DNA of 58,239 bases. It comes from Acidobacteriota bacterium. GTDB lineage: Bacteria > Acidobacteriota > Terriglobia > 2-12-FULL-54-10. The stretch is from assembly GCA_009691245.1 (NCBI GenBank), contig SHUM01000017.1:1-58239 (forward strand), given 5' to 3'. Shown in pieces: positions 22,487 to 29,400 of this stretch. The notes beneath the pieces are model-generated. The model was not told the DNA's origin. It searched no databases and worked only from the letters and a program-made list of their open reading frames with translations. Position numbers and translations under genes: made by a program. Within the stretch, counting starts at the first letter, position 1, and each line of letters begins with the position of its first letter.

Positions 22487-23269
22487 GTGAAATGGCAGTC
22501 GGCCCCGTCGATGTCCAATAAAATCATCCAACCCACATTTTCAAGGCGGCTGGCGATTCATTTGACCCTGCTCGCGGCTGTCTCCGCGCTGCCCTTTGCG
22601 CATGGCCATGAGATCATCACGACGCAAATCACTTTCAATCAGACGATTTTCCCGATCATTCAAGCGAACTGCGCAGCCTGTCATCGCGCGGGTGGCATGG
22701 CGTTCTCATTGATGACGTACCAGGAAGCCCGCCCCTGGGCCGCAGCCATCCAGGAAGAAGTGCTCCGGCGCAGGATGCCGCCTTGGGGTGCCGTGCGCGG
22801 CTTCGGGCACTTCCGCAACGACCCCAGTCTTACGCAGACCCAACTGCAACAGATCGCCGAGTGGGCCGAAGGCGGCGCGCCGGAGGGGGCCGCAAGAGCC
22901 GGGCCTGCATCGGGGATTCCTTTGGCGAGTACGATTCCCCGCCGCGATGATCTCATCCAACCGGTCTCCGCGGAGTCAGTGATTGAGGTGGGCAAAGCAG
23001 GAGAGAGATTTGTACTAGACTTTTTTGAATTACGCAGGGATGTCACGCTCAGTGGCATTCAATTCGTGAAAGCGGCTGAGAAGTCTTCCTTCCGCATTAG
23101 GGCCGTGCTGCCGGATGGGTCGGTGATTGCTCTAGTCTGGATATACGAGTTTCGCGCGGGGTATTCACAACCATACATCTTCGCCGCCCCGCTGCGGCTG
23201 CCTGCGGGGACGCGCATCCAGGGCGTGCCCGCCGATGCACAGGCGATTCTGCTGATAGAACAGCCGTAG
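22487..23269 (+). CDS. Exported c-type cytochrome with degenerate copper-monooxygenase-like C-terminal domain
   Basis: 260 residues with an N-terminal export signal (hydrophobic core about 22-38). One heme c motif NCAACHR (C62, C65, H66) is followed by MPPW, where M97 is the likely axial ligand. This N-terminal part is clearly paralogous to the start of the 24093-25487 protein (shared FN..I.PI.Q.NC.ACHR.G and RPWA.AI pattern). The C-terminus aligns with that protein's last copper-binding domain, but the HMH ligand segment is replaced by KAA, so no copper site is expected. Probably a periplasmic electron carrier or binding protein. The start is a GTG with GGGAG 6 bases upstream. Confidence 0.72.
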   Translation: MKWQSAPSMSNKIIQPTFSRRLAIHLTLLAAVSALPFAHGHEIITTQITFNQTIFPIIQANCAACHRAGGMAFSLMTYQEARPWAAAIQEEVLRRRMPPWGAVRGFGHFRNDPSLTQTQLQQIAEWAEGGAPEGAARAGPASGIPLASTIPRRDDLIQPVSAESVIEVGKAGERFVLDFFELRRDVTLSGIQFVKAAEKSSFRIRAVLPDGSVIALVWIYEFRAGYSQPYIFAAPLRLPAGTRIQGVPADAQAILLIEQP

Positions 23270-23290
23270 ACCTTTGGCGCACTGCCGCTT

Positions 23291-24106
23291 TCACTTCATT
23301 TCCTGAACCGGCACATCGAACCTCGCCCTGCTTACCACTCCCCGGGCCTGAACTTCCACCCAGACGCGGTAGTTGTGCGGGCGCGGGAAGTAAACGTTGA
23401 ACTGCACCTCAGTTCCTTTGGCCCCGGCGAACGGCTCGATGTGCATCAGATCAATCAGGTCGTCGCTGGCTACCAGCATCTGCCCCCGGTCTCCGTGAAA
23501 ATTTTCAAGGCCTGCCTGCGGGTCGAGGGTGAAGAAGAGCAGTGTCTTCCCGCTGGGATTTGGCTGCGCCGGTTCGCTTCTCATGGCGACGCGCAGTCCG
23601 TCAGCCTGCTTGGGGGAGTTATCGCGTGTAAGCGCGGGAATGGGCTGTTCTGCGCCAGTTACAATCAAGCTGCCGATCACCGACTGCTCCGGCGCGCCCT
23701 CCGGCTGAAACTCGCTAAGGATGCGGTACAGCCCGGGGCTGGGCAGCGTTGCTTCGATTCGGAATTTTCCATCTGGGGATAGGCCGGGATGCTCGTGCAG
23801 GAAAAATCGCAAATCCTGGCTCACAATATAAGAGTGGAAGAGGTGGGTGTGGCTGAGTTGGAAGTCCGTGACTATCCGTCCGCTAAACTGCCCGCCGGTC
23901 AATTTTCGAACCGCAAACTCCAGTAGGACCTTCTTCCCGGCTTGTATCGCGCGTGGAGTCGCGCTGATATCCACGGAATAAGAAACTCCATTTTCAGCCG
24001 CCGTCTGTGCCTGGCAGACGACAGCGCAGAGTGCGGGCAGCATCGCGATGGCAGCCATTGCTGCGCGCCACTGTCGACTGCGCGGAGGCGGACTACTCAC
24101 CCGCAT
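23291..24106 (-). CDS. Secreted protein with two YtkA-like beta-sandwich repeats
   Basis: 271 residues with a signal peptide (core AAMAAIAMLPALCAVVCQAQ). Two similar segments follow. The first has LFHSYIVSQDLRFFLHEHP and DGKFRIEATLPSPGLYRILSEFQP. The second has GQMLVASDDLIDLMHIEP, then FNVYFPRPHNYRVWVEVQ. This pattern, with His residues at the strand ends, is seen in YtkA-like periplasmic proteins often found near copper or cytochrome genes. Function is unknown; metal binding is inference from the His positions. Its start overlaps the end of the upstream cytochrome-copper oxygenase gene by 14 bases, so the two are very likely co-translated and may work together in the periplasm. Confidence 0.6.
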   Translation of the reverse strand: MRVSSPPPRSRQWRAAMAAIAMLPALCAVVCQAQTAAENGVSYSVDISATPRAIQAGKKVLLEFAVRKLTGGQFSGRIVTDFQLSHTHLFHSYIVSQDLRFFLHEHPGLSPDGKFRIEATLPSPGLYRILSEFQPEGAPEQSVIGSLIVTGAEQPIPALTRDNSPKQADGLRVAMRSEPAQPNPSGKTLLFFTLDPQAGLENFHGDRGQMLVASDDLIDLMHIEPFAGAKGTEVQFNVYFPRPHNYRVWVEVQARGVVSRARFDVPVQEMK

Positions 24107-25487
24107 GCGCGCCGGCCTGCGGGGCGCGCAGGAAAACCTGTCCCGCCTTTACGTGCTTGTCAACCAGCATGCCCACGAATCCTGAGCTCATCTCTTCCCA
24201 CACCATGCCACCGTAGTAGACCGTTTGCTTCGGGTCAGGATTGAATTTGTTGTTCACCGAATTGTCGAAGTACGCGGTGGTGATGATCTTCGATCCTTTG
24301 GGAACCTTAACGGGCGCAGCCAGCTCATAGCCGAGCTGCCAGTTGAAATCGTAACGCGGAACGTTGAGTAAATCCTGCTTACGGCCATCGGGATAGATCA
24401 CCTGAAACAACATGCTCTTGCCGCGCAGATGCATGTGAGGGCTGAGCCACACAATCTCGACATCCTGATCGAGTACGGCCTCACCGTGGGGTGCTTTCCA
24501 ACTGGCTTCGCCCGCCGGGATGGCGAAGTTCTCAGCGTCTTGCGGCCCGCGCACGGTCAGCGAAACATAGCGCCGCGCCGGCTCCTGTTTGGCAATGGTG
24601 AATCCCACCGCCGGACGGTCCACCACTTCCTTGCCGTTGGGCGTATAGTGCAGGCTGAACACAATGTCGGTGCCCGCCGGAATCAGCTTGGCCGCCCCCT
24701 TGGGTCGATAGTCCATCAGCGATTGCAGCCCAGGCAGATAACAGGCTTCGCCTTCGCTGGCATCGCGCAGCGCGGGGCGTGCGTCGAGGCTCTGCTGAGC
24801 CGTCTCGCCTTTCTTGCGCGGCAGTTCGACCCCGCGATCGTCGCGCATTACTTCGTTCCAGTAACGCTCGCCGTACTTCACATCCTCGTTGTGCGGCATC
24901 AGGTGTACGCAGATGTGATGCGTTACGGACGGCTCACTGGGCTTCACTTCGATCGACGAAACCCACGTATCTTTGTCGAGTCCGCTGGGGACGGCCACAC
25001 GGAACCACTCGATGACATTATTCTTGGCTGTCGCTGGAACCTTAGTCTCCGGTCCTTTCACAATGTGATCGGGCTGCACCTGCCAGCCCCCATCGGGCCA
25101 CGCGACAAGCGCGGGTTTGTCTTTGGCATCGCCCTCCAGCGCTCCTTGATCCACCCACGACGCGATGAGATCAATCTCACTTTGCTTGATTGAACTGTCG
25201 TTGGAAAACTTACCTACTGTGGGGTCGGCGTTCCAAGGAGGCATCTGCCGTGTAATGACCTTCTGCTTGATGGCCTTGGCCCACGGTCGCGTATTCTCGT
25301 AACTCAGCAACGACATCGGCGCGATCTGGCCAGGCCTGTGGCAGGCTTGGCAGTTGCGCTGCAGAATGGGCAGCACATCCTTGTTGAAGGTAACAGACGT
25401 GGCCGGAACTTCTGCGGCCAGCGCGGTCATGCCAGTAATGAAAATCACAGCCAATAAGTGCCCGATCAGAATTGATTTTTCCCCCAT
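24093..25487 (-). CDS. Exported fusion of c-type cytochrome and copper type II monooxygenase-like domains
   Basis: About 464 residues with a signal peptide (core IGHLLAVIFITGMTALA). One heme c motif CQACHR (C46, C49, H50) is followed by MPPW (M82). The rest resembles copper type II, ascorbate-dependent monooxygenases of the PHM/DBH type. VTHHICVH gives paired His for one copper, SPHMHLRG (His near 351 and 353) gives the HxH of the second, and EEMSSGF (Met near 431) could be its Met ligand. The likely role is periplasmic oxidation with electrons passing through the heme, but the substrate is unknown. GGGAGGA before the ATG at 25487 fixes the start. The YtkA-like gene overlaps its 3' end. Confidence 0.72.
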   Translation of the reverse strand: MGEKSILIGHLLAVIFITGMTALAAEVPATSVTFNKDVLPILQRNCQACHRPGQIAPMSLLSYENTRPWAKAIKQKVITRQMPPWNADPTVGKFSNDSSIKQSEIDLIASWVDQGALEGDAKDKPALVAWPDGGWQVQPDHIVKGPETKVPATAKNNVIEWFRVAVPSGLDKDTWVSSIEVKPSEPSVTHHICVHLMPHNEDVKYGERYWNEVMRDDRGVELPRKKGETAQQSLDARPALRDASEGEACYLPGLQSLMDYRPKGAAKLIPAGTDIVFSLHYTPNGKEVVDRPAVGFTIAKQEPARRYVSLTVRGPQDAENFAIPAGEASWKAPHGEAVLDQDVEIVWLSPHMHLRGKSMLFQVIYPDGRKQDLLNVPRYDFNWQLGYELAAPVKVPKGSKIITTAYFDNSVNNKFNPDPKQTVYYGGMVWEEMSSGFVGMLVDKHVKAGQVFLRAPQAGAHAGE

Positions 25488-25581: not shown

Positions 25582-26766
25582 TCAATCCTTCCCCGTGTCG
25601 CTCTGGGAGAGATTTGCGTATCGAGCCATGAAACGACGGTCGATCCAGTCCTTAAGCGTCCAGAGCCAGCGGCCCTCCGCCGACAACTCGCCGCGTGAAG
25701 CCACGGCGTAGCGGTCGCCGGTGCTGATCAGGCTCAGGAACTTTTTCTGCGGCGTGAAGGGAACCAGCGGCTCACCCCGCAGCGCGCGCCGCAGATTCTC
25801 GGTCAAGGGCGGCCCCTGCCGCACCGCGAACACCCCGGCCTTCTCGCGTGGATGGTGGAGCACGGCAGCCACGTCGCCTGAAGCAAACACTCCGCGCTGC
25901 GAAATGGATTCCAGTGTGTCGGCCACCCTTATGAATCCGCGTTCATCGACCGCGAGGCCGGACTTCTTAATCCAGTGCGCTCCGCCCGCCTGCGTAACCC
26001 AAAGTATTTCATCAAGGGCCAACGCCTTGCCGCCCTCCAGCCGCACTGCGTTTGGAAGGACCTCGGCCACCGCATGACCCGTATGAATTGCCACTCTGCG
26101 CTCAGCCAGGACACGCTCGAAGCGTCGCCGTACGTCCGCCGAGTGGGTCGGCAAAATGGGACCGGCGCTAATCAAATGAAATTCTACTCGTAAGCCGACC
26201 GCTGAACCTGGACGAGCTGCCGGCATATTTGCGAACGAGTGCTGCATTGCCAGTAAAATTTCCACGCCCCCGGCGCCGGCGCCCACCACGCCGATCCGCA
26301 CGGTTCCCGCCGCCTCGCACACACGCTCTCGGAGCTTCTTCCAGCGCTCGATAAAAGTGCTGATCGGTTTTACAGGGACTGCGTGAGCCGCCGCTCCCGG
26401 GATATTAGCGAGCAGCGGAGTGGAGCCGGTGTCGATGGAAAGCACATCATAGGGAATCGGTGATCCATTGCGGCGATGAAGCTGCCCGGAGTTATAGCTA
26501 AGACCGGTGTCGAGGCCCACGGCCTCATCGTGAATAAATTCGGCCCGCGCAAATTGCGCCAGTGCTGCCAGATCAATATGCATCTGCTTGAAGTCATAGT
26601 GTCCGGCGATATATCCCGGCAGCATCCCGGAGTATGGCGTGTGGCGTTCGCGACCGATCAGCGTCAGGCGCGCGCCCGGCTCCGGGCGCAGGCCCCATCG
26701 GCGCAGAACCTCCACATGGCTGTGCCCGCCGCCCACCAGCACCAGATGCTTCTCCGCTACGTTCAC
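25582..26766 (-). CDS. FAD-dependent pyridine nucleotide-disulfide oxidoreductase (NDH-2-like, SelD-associated type)
   Basis: 394 residues with two dinucleotide-binding motifs: VLVGGGHSHVEVLRRWG at the N-terminus (FAD) and GVVGAGAGGVEILLAM in the middle (NAD(P)H). The sequence HTPYSGMLPGYIAGHY is typical of the NDH-like module that in some bacteria is fused to selenide, water dikinase; here it is a free-standing gene and no selD is visible. It probably oxidises NAD(P)H, passing electrons to a quinone or other acceptor. The start is a GTG with AAGGA 6 bases upstream. It is the last gene of a tightly packed minus-strand group, 21 bases after the aminotransferase. Confidence 0.82.
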   Translation of the reverse strand: MNVAEKHLVLVGGGHSHVEVLRRWGLRPEPGARLTLIGRERHTPYSGMLPGYIAGHYDFKQMHIDLAALAQFARAEFIHDEAVGLDTGLSYNSGQLHRRNGSPIPYDVLSIDTGSTPLLANIPGAAAHAVPVKPISTFIERWKKLRERVCEAAGTVRIGVVGAGAGGVEILLAMQHSFANMPAARPGSAVGLRVEFHLISAGPILPTHSADVRRRFERVLAERRVAIHTGHAVAEVLPNAVRLEGGKALALDEILWVTQAGGAHWIKKSGLAVDERGFIRVADTLESISQRGVFASGDVAAVLHHPREKAGVFAVRQGPPLTENLRRALRGEPLVPFTPQKKFLSLISTGDRYAVASRGELSAEGRWLWTLKDWIDRRFMARYANLSQSDTGKD

Positions 26767-28223: not shown

Positions 28224-29309
28224 CTACACGTTCCGCAGGAAGAAATTGCAGATGTGGTAGCCGTCCAGATAGCGAAATGGCGTACGGCCCATGGTGTAAT
28301 GTCCGCAGGGCACCACGGCCACGTCGTGGTCGAACTCGCGCAGGCGCGCTTCTTCCAGCATGGCGTCGGAGTACTGGCGCAGGAACGTCGAGTCGTACGT
28401 TGCGTAGATGAACAACGACTTCTTCTTCATAGTGGAGTAGCGATGCACGTACTCCGCCGGAGTAATCGCCCGCCAGGCCGCCTGCAACTGCGGCAGATCG
28501 ACATTGCCATCGAAGCTCTGGCGGATGTGCAGCGTGGATAGACCCGTCCACACCACGTCAGCGAAGTAGAGCGAGACCATGTTGTAGACGTTGGCGCGCA
28601 GGCGCGCATCATGCGCGCTGGCGAGGAACGCGTAGGCCGAGCCGAGGCTGGTGCCGATGATGCCAAAGCGGTGGTAGCCCTGCGACTCGAGCCAGTCCAG
28701 GCAGCAGCGGATGTCGATCACCGCCTGGCGCGTCGAGTCCACCGTGCGGCCCACGTTGGACGACACCGCGTAGTCGGCGCGCTCGAACCCCGGCAACATG
28801 CGACGGTCATGATACGGCAGACTCACGCGCAGAGTGGGCAGCCCCAAATACTGCAATGCCTTGCACAACCCGACGTGCTCATTTACTTTGGCATTCCAAT
28901 GCGGCAGGACGATGATCGCGCGGCCTTTGCGATCTGAGGCGGGAAACCACTGCGCGTGCGCGATGTTATTCTCCGCGTATGGCGTCCTTACCGGCGAGGT
29001 GAAACTCAGAATATCGTCGCGCAACTGAAAGTCAGTGGGCGTCTGGTAGCCGAAGAACTCCTCGCTCGCGCGGCTTCCGGCTTCTCCCAGAGCGGCCAGA
29101 TATCCGGCTGGGTCGTGACCATTGCGCGCAATCTCGCGCGCGGACGGCCAGTGCTCGGCCCAATCGAGACCCCAGTCAAACGGCCTCACGACGCGGTTGG
29201 TGGCCGCGGTCATGAGCTTCATCTCCCAGTCATCCATTCGTTGCCGGTATGCGCGATTCAATTCCACGCGCGCCCGGTATATCCATCGCAATGGCACAAG
29301 CGCTCCCAT
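28224..29309 (-). CDS. Alpha/beta-hydrolase family protein
   Basis: About 361 residues without a signal peptide. The nucleophile elbow is FGIIGTSLGSAYAFLAS (Ser in GTSLG), preceded by a strand carrying IIVLPHWN and LRVSLPYHD. A late VVPCGHYTMG supplies a likely catalytic His, and FIYATYDSTFL lies at the usual acid-residue strand. It could be an esterase, thioesterase or peptidase; no closer family recognised. The frame opens at a TTG (29330); the ATG at 29309 is taken as start, though without a clear ribosome site. It heads the group hydrolase-NrtS-aminotransferase-FAD oxidoreductase, with gaps of 12, -1 and 21 bases. Confidence 0.68.
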   Translation of the reverse strand: MGALVPLRWIYRARVELNRAYRQRMDDWEMKLMTAATNRVVRPFDWGLDWAEHWPSAREIARNGHDPAGYLAALGEAGSRASEEFFGYQTPTDFQLRDDILSFTSPVRTPYAENNIAHAQWFPASDRKGRAIIVLPHWNAKVNEHVGLCKALQYLGLPTLRVSLPYHDRRMLPGFERADYAVSSNVGRTVDSTRQAVIDIRCCLDWLESQGYHRFGIIGTSLGSAYAFLASAHDARLRANVYNMVSLYFADVVWTGLSTLHIRQSFDGNVDLPQLQAAWRAITPAEYVHRYSTMKKKSLFIYATYDSTFLRQYSDAMLEEARLREFDHDVAVVPCGHYTMGRTPFRYLDGYHICNFFLRNV

Positions 29310-29400
29310 TACAGAATGACTCAACTGCAATTAGGCCACATCATTTTTTATTAGCGCAAGCTCTCGGCGGTTCCATCGATAGTGGAAGCGTGACAGTGGA

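Follow-up and report, generated by a model that had tools for sequence, protein, structure and literature searches.

On a 58,239-nucleotide contig of an Acidobacteriota bacterium (assembly GCA_009691245.1, contig SHUM01000017.1; the whole contig is called the window here), a gene for a small secreted c-type cytochrome, which we call Short, lies close to a gene for a larger protein, Big, in which a heme c domain is fused to a dicopper oxygenase of the PHM/DBH type. The C-terminus of Short descends from the second copper domain of such an oxygenase, and every copper ligand has been lost from it. We tentatively favour the view that Short is a pseudo-oxygenase of PHM descent that has become a copper- and electron-handling cytochrome, which together with a third protein, Mid, would serve some of the heme-PHM oxygenases.

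Organization of the locus

The genes under study are listed below.

22511..23269, forward strand: Short, a secreted c-type cytochrome with a predicted N-terminal histidine and a ligand-free PHM-type second domain; 252 amino acids
22487, forward strand: GTG at which the longest open reading frame of Short starts
23291..24106, reverse strand: Mid, secreted, with conserved histidine clusters, a relative of HMBD/YtkA-like proteins; the HMBD has been lost in the window copy
24093..25487, reverse strand: Big, a fusion of heme c and a PHM/DBH-type dicopper oxygenase

For comparison, genome contigs were scanned with 14 Shorts as query. This gave 152 confirmed relatives, and the comparison rests on the best 80 of these loci, each with a single Short; nearly all of the record titles are acidobacterial. 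Outside the Acidobacteriota, this one scan was the search made for His forms. One locus (L108, CALQCC020000020.1) is from a record titled Bordetella parapertussis, but the contig is acidobacterial, which marks a mislabelled metagenome-assembled genome; it is apparently the same contig as G010:C20 and belongs to the same class as the window.

The original prediction, made from the sequence of the window, had described Short and Big as a convergent pair side by side, one catalytic and one degenerate. Both open reading frames are present at the predicted positions, apart from the start of Short, and a catalytic-type form does lie beside a ligand-free paralogue. However, Mid is situated between them, overlapping the 3′ end of Big by 14 bases, and it is Mid, not Big, that is the direct convergent neighbour of Short. 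Translation of Short probably starts at 22511 rather than at 22487, the start originally given. In the orthologue from a genome of the same genus (G001), an in-frame TAG is found within the aligned upstream stretch, and the reading frame starts at the ATG matching 22511. The GTG at 22487 is therefore probably unused. We also considered that the G001 orthologue is a broken gene and ruled this out, because the TAG is upstream of the likely true start. The reading frame of Big is already open from 25532, and the ATG at 25487 is the start of a plausible signal peptide. In the genome of the window, Short has three matches; besides Short itself and Big there is one further Big-type gene, which lies on another contig (L048).

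Big is a PHM/DBH-type oxygenase with its own heme

By fold and by ligands, Big is a dicopper oxygenase of the PHM/DBH type. Its AlphaFold2 model (predicted local distance difference test, pLDDT, 86.7; predicted template-modelling score, pTM, 0.86) matches human DBH (4zel, Z 21.5) and rat PHM (3mib, Z 21.1), and the next fold follows at Z 8.2. The motifs THH, SPHMHLRG and EEM that had been read from the sequence are present, and an alignment to the PHM/DBH copper sites, which had been proposed as a check, places six ligands in Big and none in Short. PHM M314 we take to be a CuM ligand. The features of Big, all on the reverse strand and numbered in alignment A5 (61 Bigs; a frame-broken gene, L107:349-1539, and the 835-amino-acid protein of L088 were left out), are as follows.

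25338..25352, reverse strand: heme c motif CQACH; C18, C21 and H22 invariant
24915..24920, reverse strand: HH, counterpart of PHM H107/H108 (CuH); H162 and H163 invariant, 61/61
24648..24650, reverse strand: third CuH histidine, counterpart of PHM H172; H252 invariant
24429..24437, reverse strand: HMH, counterpart of PHM H242/H244 (CuM); H323 and H325 invariant
24189..24191, reverse strand: methionine of EEM, counterpart of PHM M314 (CuM); M405 invariant

In PMC6123673, H107, H108 and H172 are named as the CuH ligands of PHM, and H242 and H244 are shown at copper. The full set of six (HHHHHM) is kept in all 61 aligned Bigs, that of the window included, and in 32 of 34 additional rows from other contexts; the remaining two are N-terminal-His forms. 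Against Pfam Cu2_monoox_C (PF03712), Big scored 19.5 bits, which is under the 23-bit cut-off, and 15 of the 61 aligned Bigs matched this family at E ≤0.001. The Pfam scan gave no match to PF01082 in Big, and PHM was not retrieved by direct sequence searches of the PDB with Big alone or with alignments A1–A3.

Big thus shares with the PHM/DBH family (copper type II ascorbate-dependent monooxygenases, PF01082/PF03712) the double jelly-roll and the six copper ligands and differs from it by the N-terminal heme c domain; Short differs by the loss of the first domain and of all ligands. Knowledge of PHM-type oxygenases comes chiefly from animals, where ascorbate is the donor. The heme of Big suggests an electron donor other than ascorbate, and the covalent heme c has probably replaced ascorbate as the electron source.

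Short retains a heme domain and a copper domain without ligands

Positions in Short are numbered in alignment A4, from which the Short of L088 was left out.

22511..22606, forward strand: predicted signal peptide, ending in LPFAHG, by the −3/−1 rule; 79 of 80 homologues have A, G, S or T at −1
22607..22609, forward strand: predicted mature N-terminal histidine; His in 80/80, invariant in A4
22670..22684, forward strand: heme c motif CAACH; C22, C25 and H26 invariant
22775..22786, forward strand: MPPW, with the likely distal heme ligand Met; M57 invariant, its role taken from class I cytochromes c
22991..23266, forward strand: jelly-roll homologous to the second copper domain of PHM, all ligands lost (hhalign and fold match)
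23066..23077, forward strand: V-K-A-A, site of the lost HMH copper motif (profile alignment)

The motifs NCAACHR, RPWA and MPPW are present in Short as predicted, and the heme domain is common to both proteins (BLASTP: 48% identity, E 9e-32); CxxCH and a distal-type Met are invariant in both A4 and A5. The C-terminus of Short had been said to align with the last copper domain of Big. By BLASTP the identity is 27% over 45 residues (E 3e-4), and profile–profile alignment by hhalign joins the two at 98.7% probability and E 1.7e-16 over 73 columns, whereas the controls, eight profiles with shuffled columns and two stretches from elsewhere in Big, gave E values of 0.055 to 0.96. The structure models agree with the common C-terminal fold that had been proposed: the C-terminal model of Short matches PHM residues ~201-324 with Z 7.6 and a root-mean-square deviation of 2.2–2.4 over 86–88 residues. 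The Short model is moderate overall (pLDDT 78.5, pTM 0.63) and good in the C-terminal domain. The jelly-roll is a common fold, and nucleoplasmin cores score equal to or slightly above PHM. A nucleoplasmin-like identity was rejected: its Z of 8.6 against 7.6 is about a tie, and the sequence profile favours PHM.

The change of HMH to KAA that had been noted is correct as a loss of ligands but not in its exact placement, for HMH falls on V-K-A, one residue off. The Met region and the entire first copper domain are missing from Short. Among the 80 aligned Shorts the first domain is a gap, most residues in the HMH columns are K/R/E/Q and V/L, and the Met ligand column is a gap in 79.

A predicted histidine at the mature N-terminus of Short

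All 80 Shorts carry a histidine 21–24 residues ahead of the first heme cysteine (inclusive count; exactly 22 in 76), a conservation equal to that of the heme motif. It is preceded by A (59), G (14), S (5), T (1) or L (1) and directly followed by D or E in 77. Since the histidine occurs in 80/80 and the residue before it is small in 79/80, mature Short probably starts with this histidine after export. A comparable histidine was found in just two of 68 Bigs, in neither behind a small residue. Outside the Short group, 19 His forms are long or intermediate, and 16 of them have A, S or T at position −1. The histidine is an unlikely distal heme ligand, since Shorts and Bigs alike keep the MPPW Met without exception.

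Short arose within one clade that has lost ligands in steps

Among 396 genomes of the phylum that were searched, long His forms with ~360–410 mature residues turned up in other families. In one of them (G239) five of the six ligands are still present, with Met replaced by Thr; two more (G438 and G310) keep three each, and the remaining long His forms keep one or none in the alignment. The His form of G061 contains HH as well, but outside the ligand columns of the alignment. Trees were built from the heme and second copper domains, with 61 Bigs as contrast and with G288, an unrelated cytochrome, left out of the combined alignment. Long His forms and Shorts form one clade against the 61 Bigs, with a support of 0.999 (1.0 without the first, His, columns). 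With 34 rows added, the support was 0.97 and the G061 His form fell inside. Within this clade the 80 Shorts are a single group (support 0.995 or better).

These results suggest that Short arose by gradual ligand loss in one clade. A Big-like ancestor would have gained the N-terminal histidine and then lost its copper ligands stepwise, and the Short lineage would additionally have lost the whole first copper domain. A long His form with five of six PHM copper ligands (L129:4087-5346, reverse strand) is a possible living intermediate. Just outside the clade stands a divergent, ligand-free His form (L022:913-1944, reverse strand, genome G008) in a genome with no detected Mid; ligand loss may therefore have occurred twice, and this genome is a known exception to the rule that His form and Mid go together.

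Short is linked to Big and co-occurs with Mid

The pairing of Short with Big recurs in related genomes, where a search for the pair had been proposed as a check: Big is near Short in 50 of the 80 loci, Mid in 38 and both in 22, and many of the contigs stop early. A same-strand Big is situated upstream of Short within 1.5 kb in 44/80 loci; in 42 of these the two genes abut or overlap, at −108 to +90 nt. The chance expectation of a Big in a 16-kb locus is ~1/18, as estimated from ~25 genes in 7.1 Mb; acidobacteria have up to ~25 matching heme-bearing genes per genome. Two or more Big genes stand in tandem ahead of a small or long His form in L066, L069, L077, L080, L095 and L136.

The module is wider than the Short/Big pair and includes Mid. 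Any match was found in 27 of 61 relatives, and all 15 of those with Short have Mid; two genomes without Short have weak or broken Mid-like matches (Fisher p 2e-12, a value that ignores shared descent). Among the 396 genomes of the phylum, Mid was found in 21/21 with a His-cytochrome (p 1e-28, with the same caveat). Mid is present in 29 genomes altogether, and the eight beyond the His-form set carry a more divergent Mid-like protein. The genes for His form and Mid are adjacent in 14 of the 21 genomes, tail to tail in 13, and on different contigs in seven. Clustering of the genes around the 80 loci showed, apart from Big and Mid, no family that occurred in more than 10/80. Minor neighbours, named by eye, were TonB-type receptors, flagellar genes, short-chain dehydrogenases/reductases, tannase-like esterases and resistance-nodulation-division (RND) pumps.

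Mid has a conserved, His-rich body with invariant histidine clusters, for which no convincing family was found in Pfam or NCBIfam. Like HMBD/YtkA-like proteins, eight of the ten Mids in alignment A2 have an HMBD (PF19335), from which the Mid of the window differs by lacking it; YtkA was matched weakly by one of the ten (E 0.04). Against the PDB, the Mid profile matched copper P-type ATPases via the HMBD only. The same-genus copy is likewise without the N-terminal HMBD, so that this genus has recently lost a metal site.

All three genes are under purifying selection. Measured against the same-genus copy, the ratio of nonsynonymous to synonymous substitution rates (dN/dS) of Big is 0.145; Short and Mid have ratios of 0.38 and 0.37, and none of the three looks like a pseudogene. 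In Short the heme half (dN/dS ~0.26) changes less than the C-terminal half.

Neighbouring genes

Directly upstream of Big, at 25582-26766, is a stand-alone TIGR03169 oxidoreductase (470 bits, cut-off 310), a domain that is usually fused to SelD. A putative quorum lactone hydrolase of the RcgR family (NF047337, 190 bits, cut-off 182) lies at 28224-29330.

Possible functions of Short

We propose that Short, Mid and Big belong together as a single copper/heme module in the cell envelope. Big would be a secreted, C–H-oxidizing dicopper oxygenase that is fed electrons by its own heme c, and Mid would be a periplasmic metal-binding protein. Short would now consist of the heme c domain, a bare PHM-type jelly-roll and, where the mature chain begins, a putative mono-histidine copper site. 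Together with Mid it would pass on electrons, copper (Cu(II) to Cu(I)) or both, and the two proteins may load or re-reduce some heme-PHM oxygenases. Precedents exist for both halves of this proposal. PMC8424229 (YcnI) and PMC12537917 (Ang-1) describe copper binding by a lone N-terminal histidine with no second histidine, and one N-terminal-His search in the latter had cytochrome c proteins among its matches. Short resembles these mono-histidine-brace proteins (YcnI/DUF1775; Ang-1) in being secreted and in its likely N-terminal histidine with no second conserved one; it differs in that the histidine heads a c-type cytochrome and the copper site is putative, and no relation in sequence or fold was found. 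Moreover, a small c-type cytochrome domain reduces copper lytic polysaccharide monooxygenases (PMC8981238). This is the X183 domain of Cbp2D, which Short resembles as a small c-type cytochrome and possible electron source for a copper monooxygenase; the oxygenase family is a different one, and Short also retains a dead oxygenase domain.

Copper binding, electron transfer, the partner of Short, the direction of transfer and the substrate of Big are all inferred, as is cleavage of the signal peptide before the histidine. Several findings weigh against this proposal. Confidence is low at the N-terminal end of the Short model (residues 1-10 have a mean pLDDT of 69), and A4 has no invariant histidine beyond His1 and the heme histidine, so that the second ligand of a classical histidine brace is missing; a mono-histidine brace would need none. 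Three of the 19 His forms outside the Short group have R or P at position −1, which is unfit for cleavage before the histidine, so that such cleavage is less certain among these long and intermediate forms. Neither Big nor Mid is near Short in 14/80 loci, in part owing to contig ends, and the Mid of the window is among those without the HMBD. Finally, 12 of the 27 matching relatives carry Big-type genes without a Short of this clade. Big therefore does not generally need Short, which together with Mid would act for just some of the Bigs or independently of them.

Alternatively, Short could be a plain electron shuttle that docks on Big via its jelly-roll and feeds it electrons from a periplasmic pool, with a histidine that has a role in the heme pocket, folding or docking and binds no copper. 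The invariant heme motif and MPPW Met, the operon-like position behind Big in 42/80 loci and the cytochrome-driven monooxygenase of PMC8981238 fit this account. On the other hand, it leaves the invariant histidine behind a likely cleavage site unexplained, Big already has a heme of its own, and the strict co-occurrence is with Mid, not with Big. We regard it as possible but on the unlikely side and favour copper and electron handling, because Mid is the companion of Short. A more specific version seems to us rather doubtful: Short would be a self-contained periplasmic Cu(II) reductase-chaperone, a c-type cytochrome on the remains of a dead PHM oxygenase that carries a mono-histidine copper site at its N-terminal end. 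With Mid it would take up Cu(II), reduce it via the heme of the same chain and deliver Cu(I) to heme-PHM oxygenases. The co-occurrence of Mid with Short instead of Big would also fit an independent copper-handling or defence pair whose linkage to Big stems from shared ancestry and local duplication, as would the seven of 21 genomes with Short and Mid on different contigs and an RND pump, of metal type by eye, near one locus (L120). Yet a Big directly upstream in 44/80 loci, 42 of them abutting or overlapping, is beyond what shared ancestry needs, and we consider such independence improbable.

The original prediction had suggested a regulatory or electron-delivery subunit. The pairing of the paralogues is borne out, and electron delivery or regulation by Short is plausible, but the Bigs that occur without Short in 12/27 relatives speak against an obligate subunit. 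A regulatory or structural subunit, whose jelly-roll pairs with or caps the copper domains of Big and whose heme is a redox sensor, would explain why the homologous fold is kept with all ligands gone, and pseudoenzyme subunits are common in general. Given the Bigs without Short and a heme half that changes less than the C-terminal half, this also strikes us as improbable, and slightly more so. A functionless, decaying copy, which the loss of all copper ligands and of one domain might indicate, is scarcely credible for Short: in 80/80 loci the frame is open and encodes both the heme motif and the histidine, dN/dS is low, in particular in the heme part, and the Shorts are a single old clade. As far as sequence can tell, conservation and dN/dS rule out a pseudogene.

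Our literature searches, in which subscription papers were sparsely covered, found no report of bacterial heme-PHM fusions or of this family. If the reductase-chaperone version were true, Short would be an oxygenase turned metallochaperone of its own family and, to our knowledge, the first case of a histidine-type copper site connected to a heme within a single chain. Conservation of the ligand-free sister protein points to a helper dedicated to copper or electrons, not to a dying gene copy, and the degrees of ligand loss seen among living lineages would be a clear case of the change from enzyme to helper protein. The module thereby offers a testable answer to the question of how bacteria may power and metallate PHM-type enzymes.

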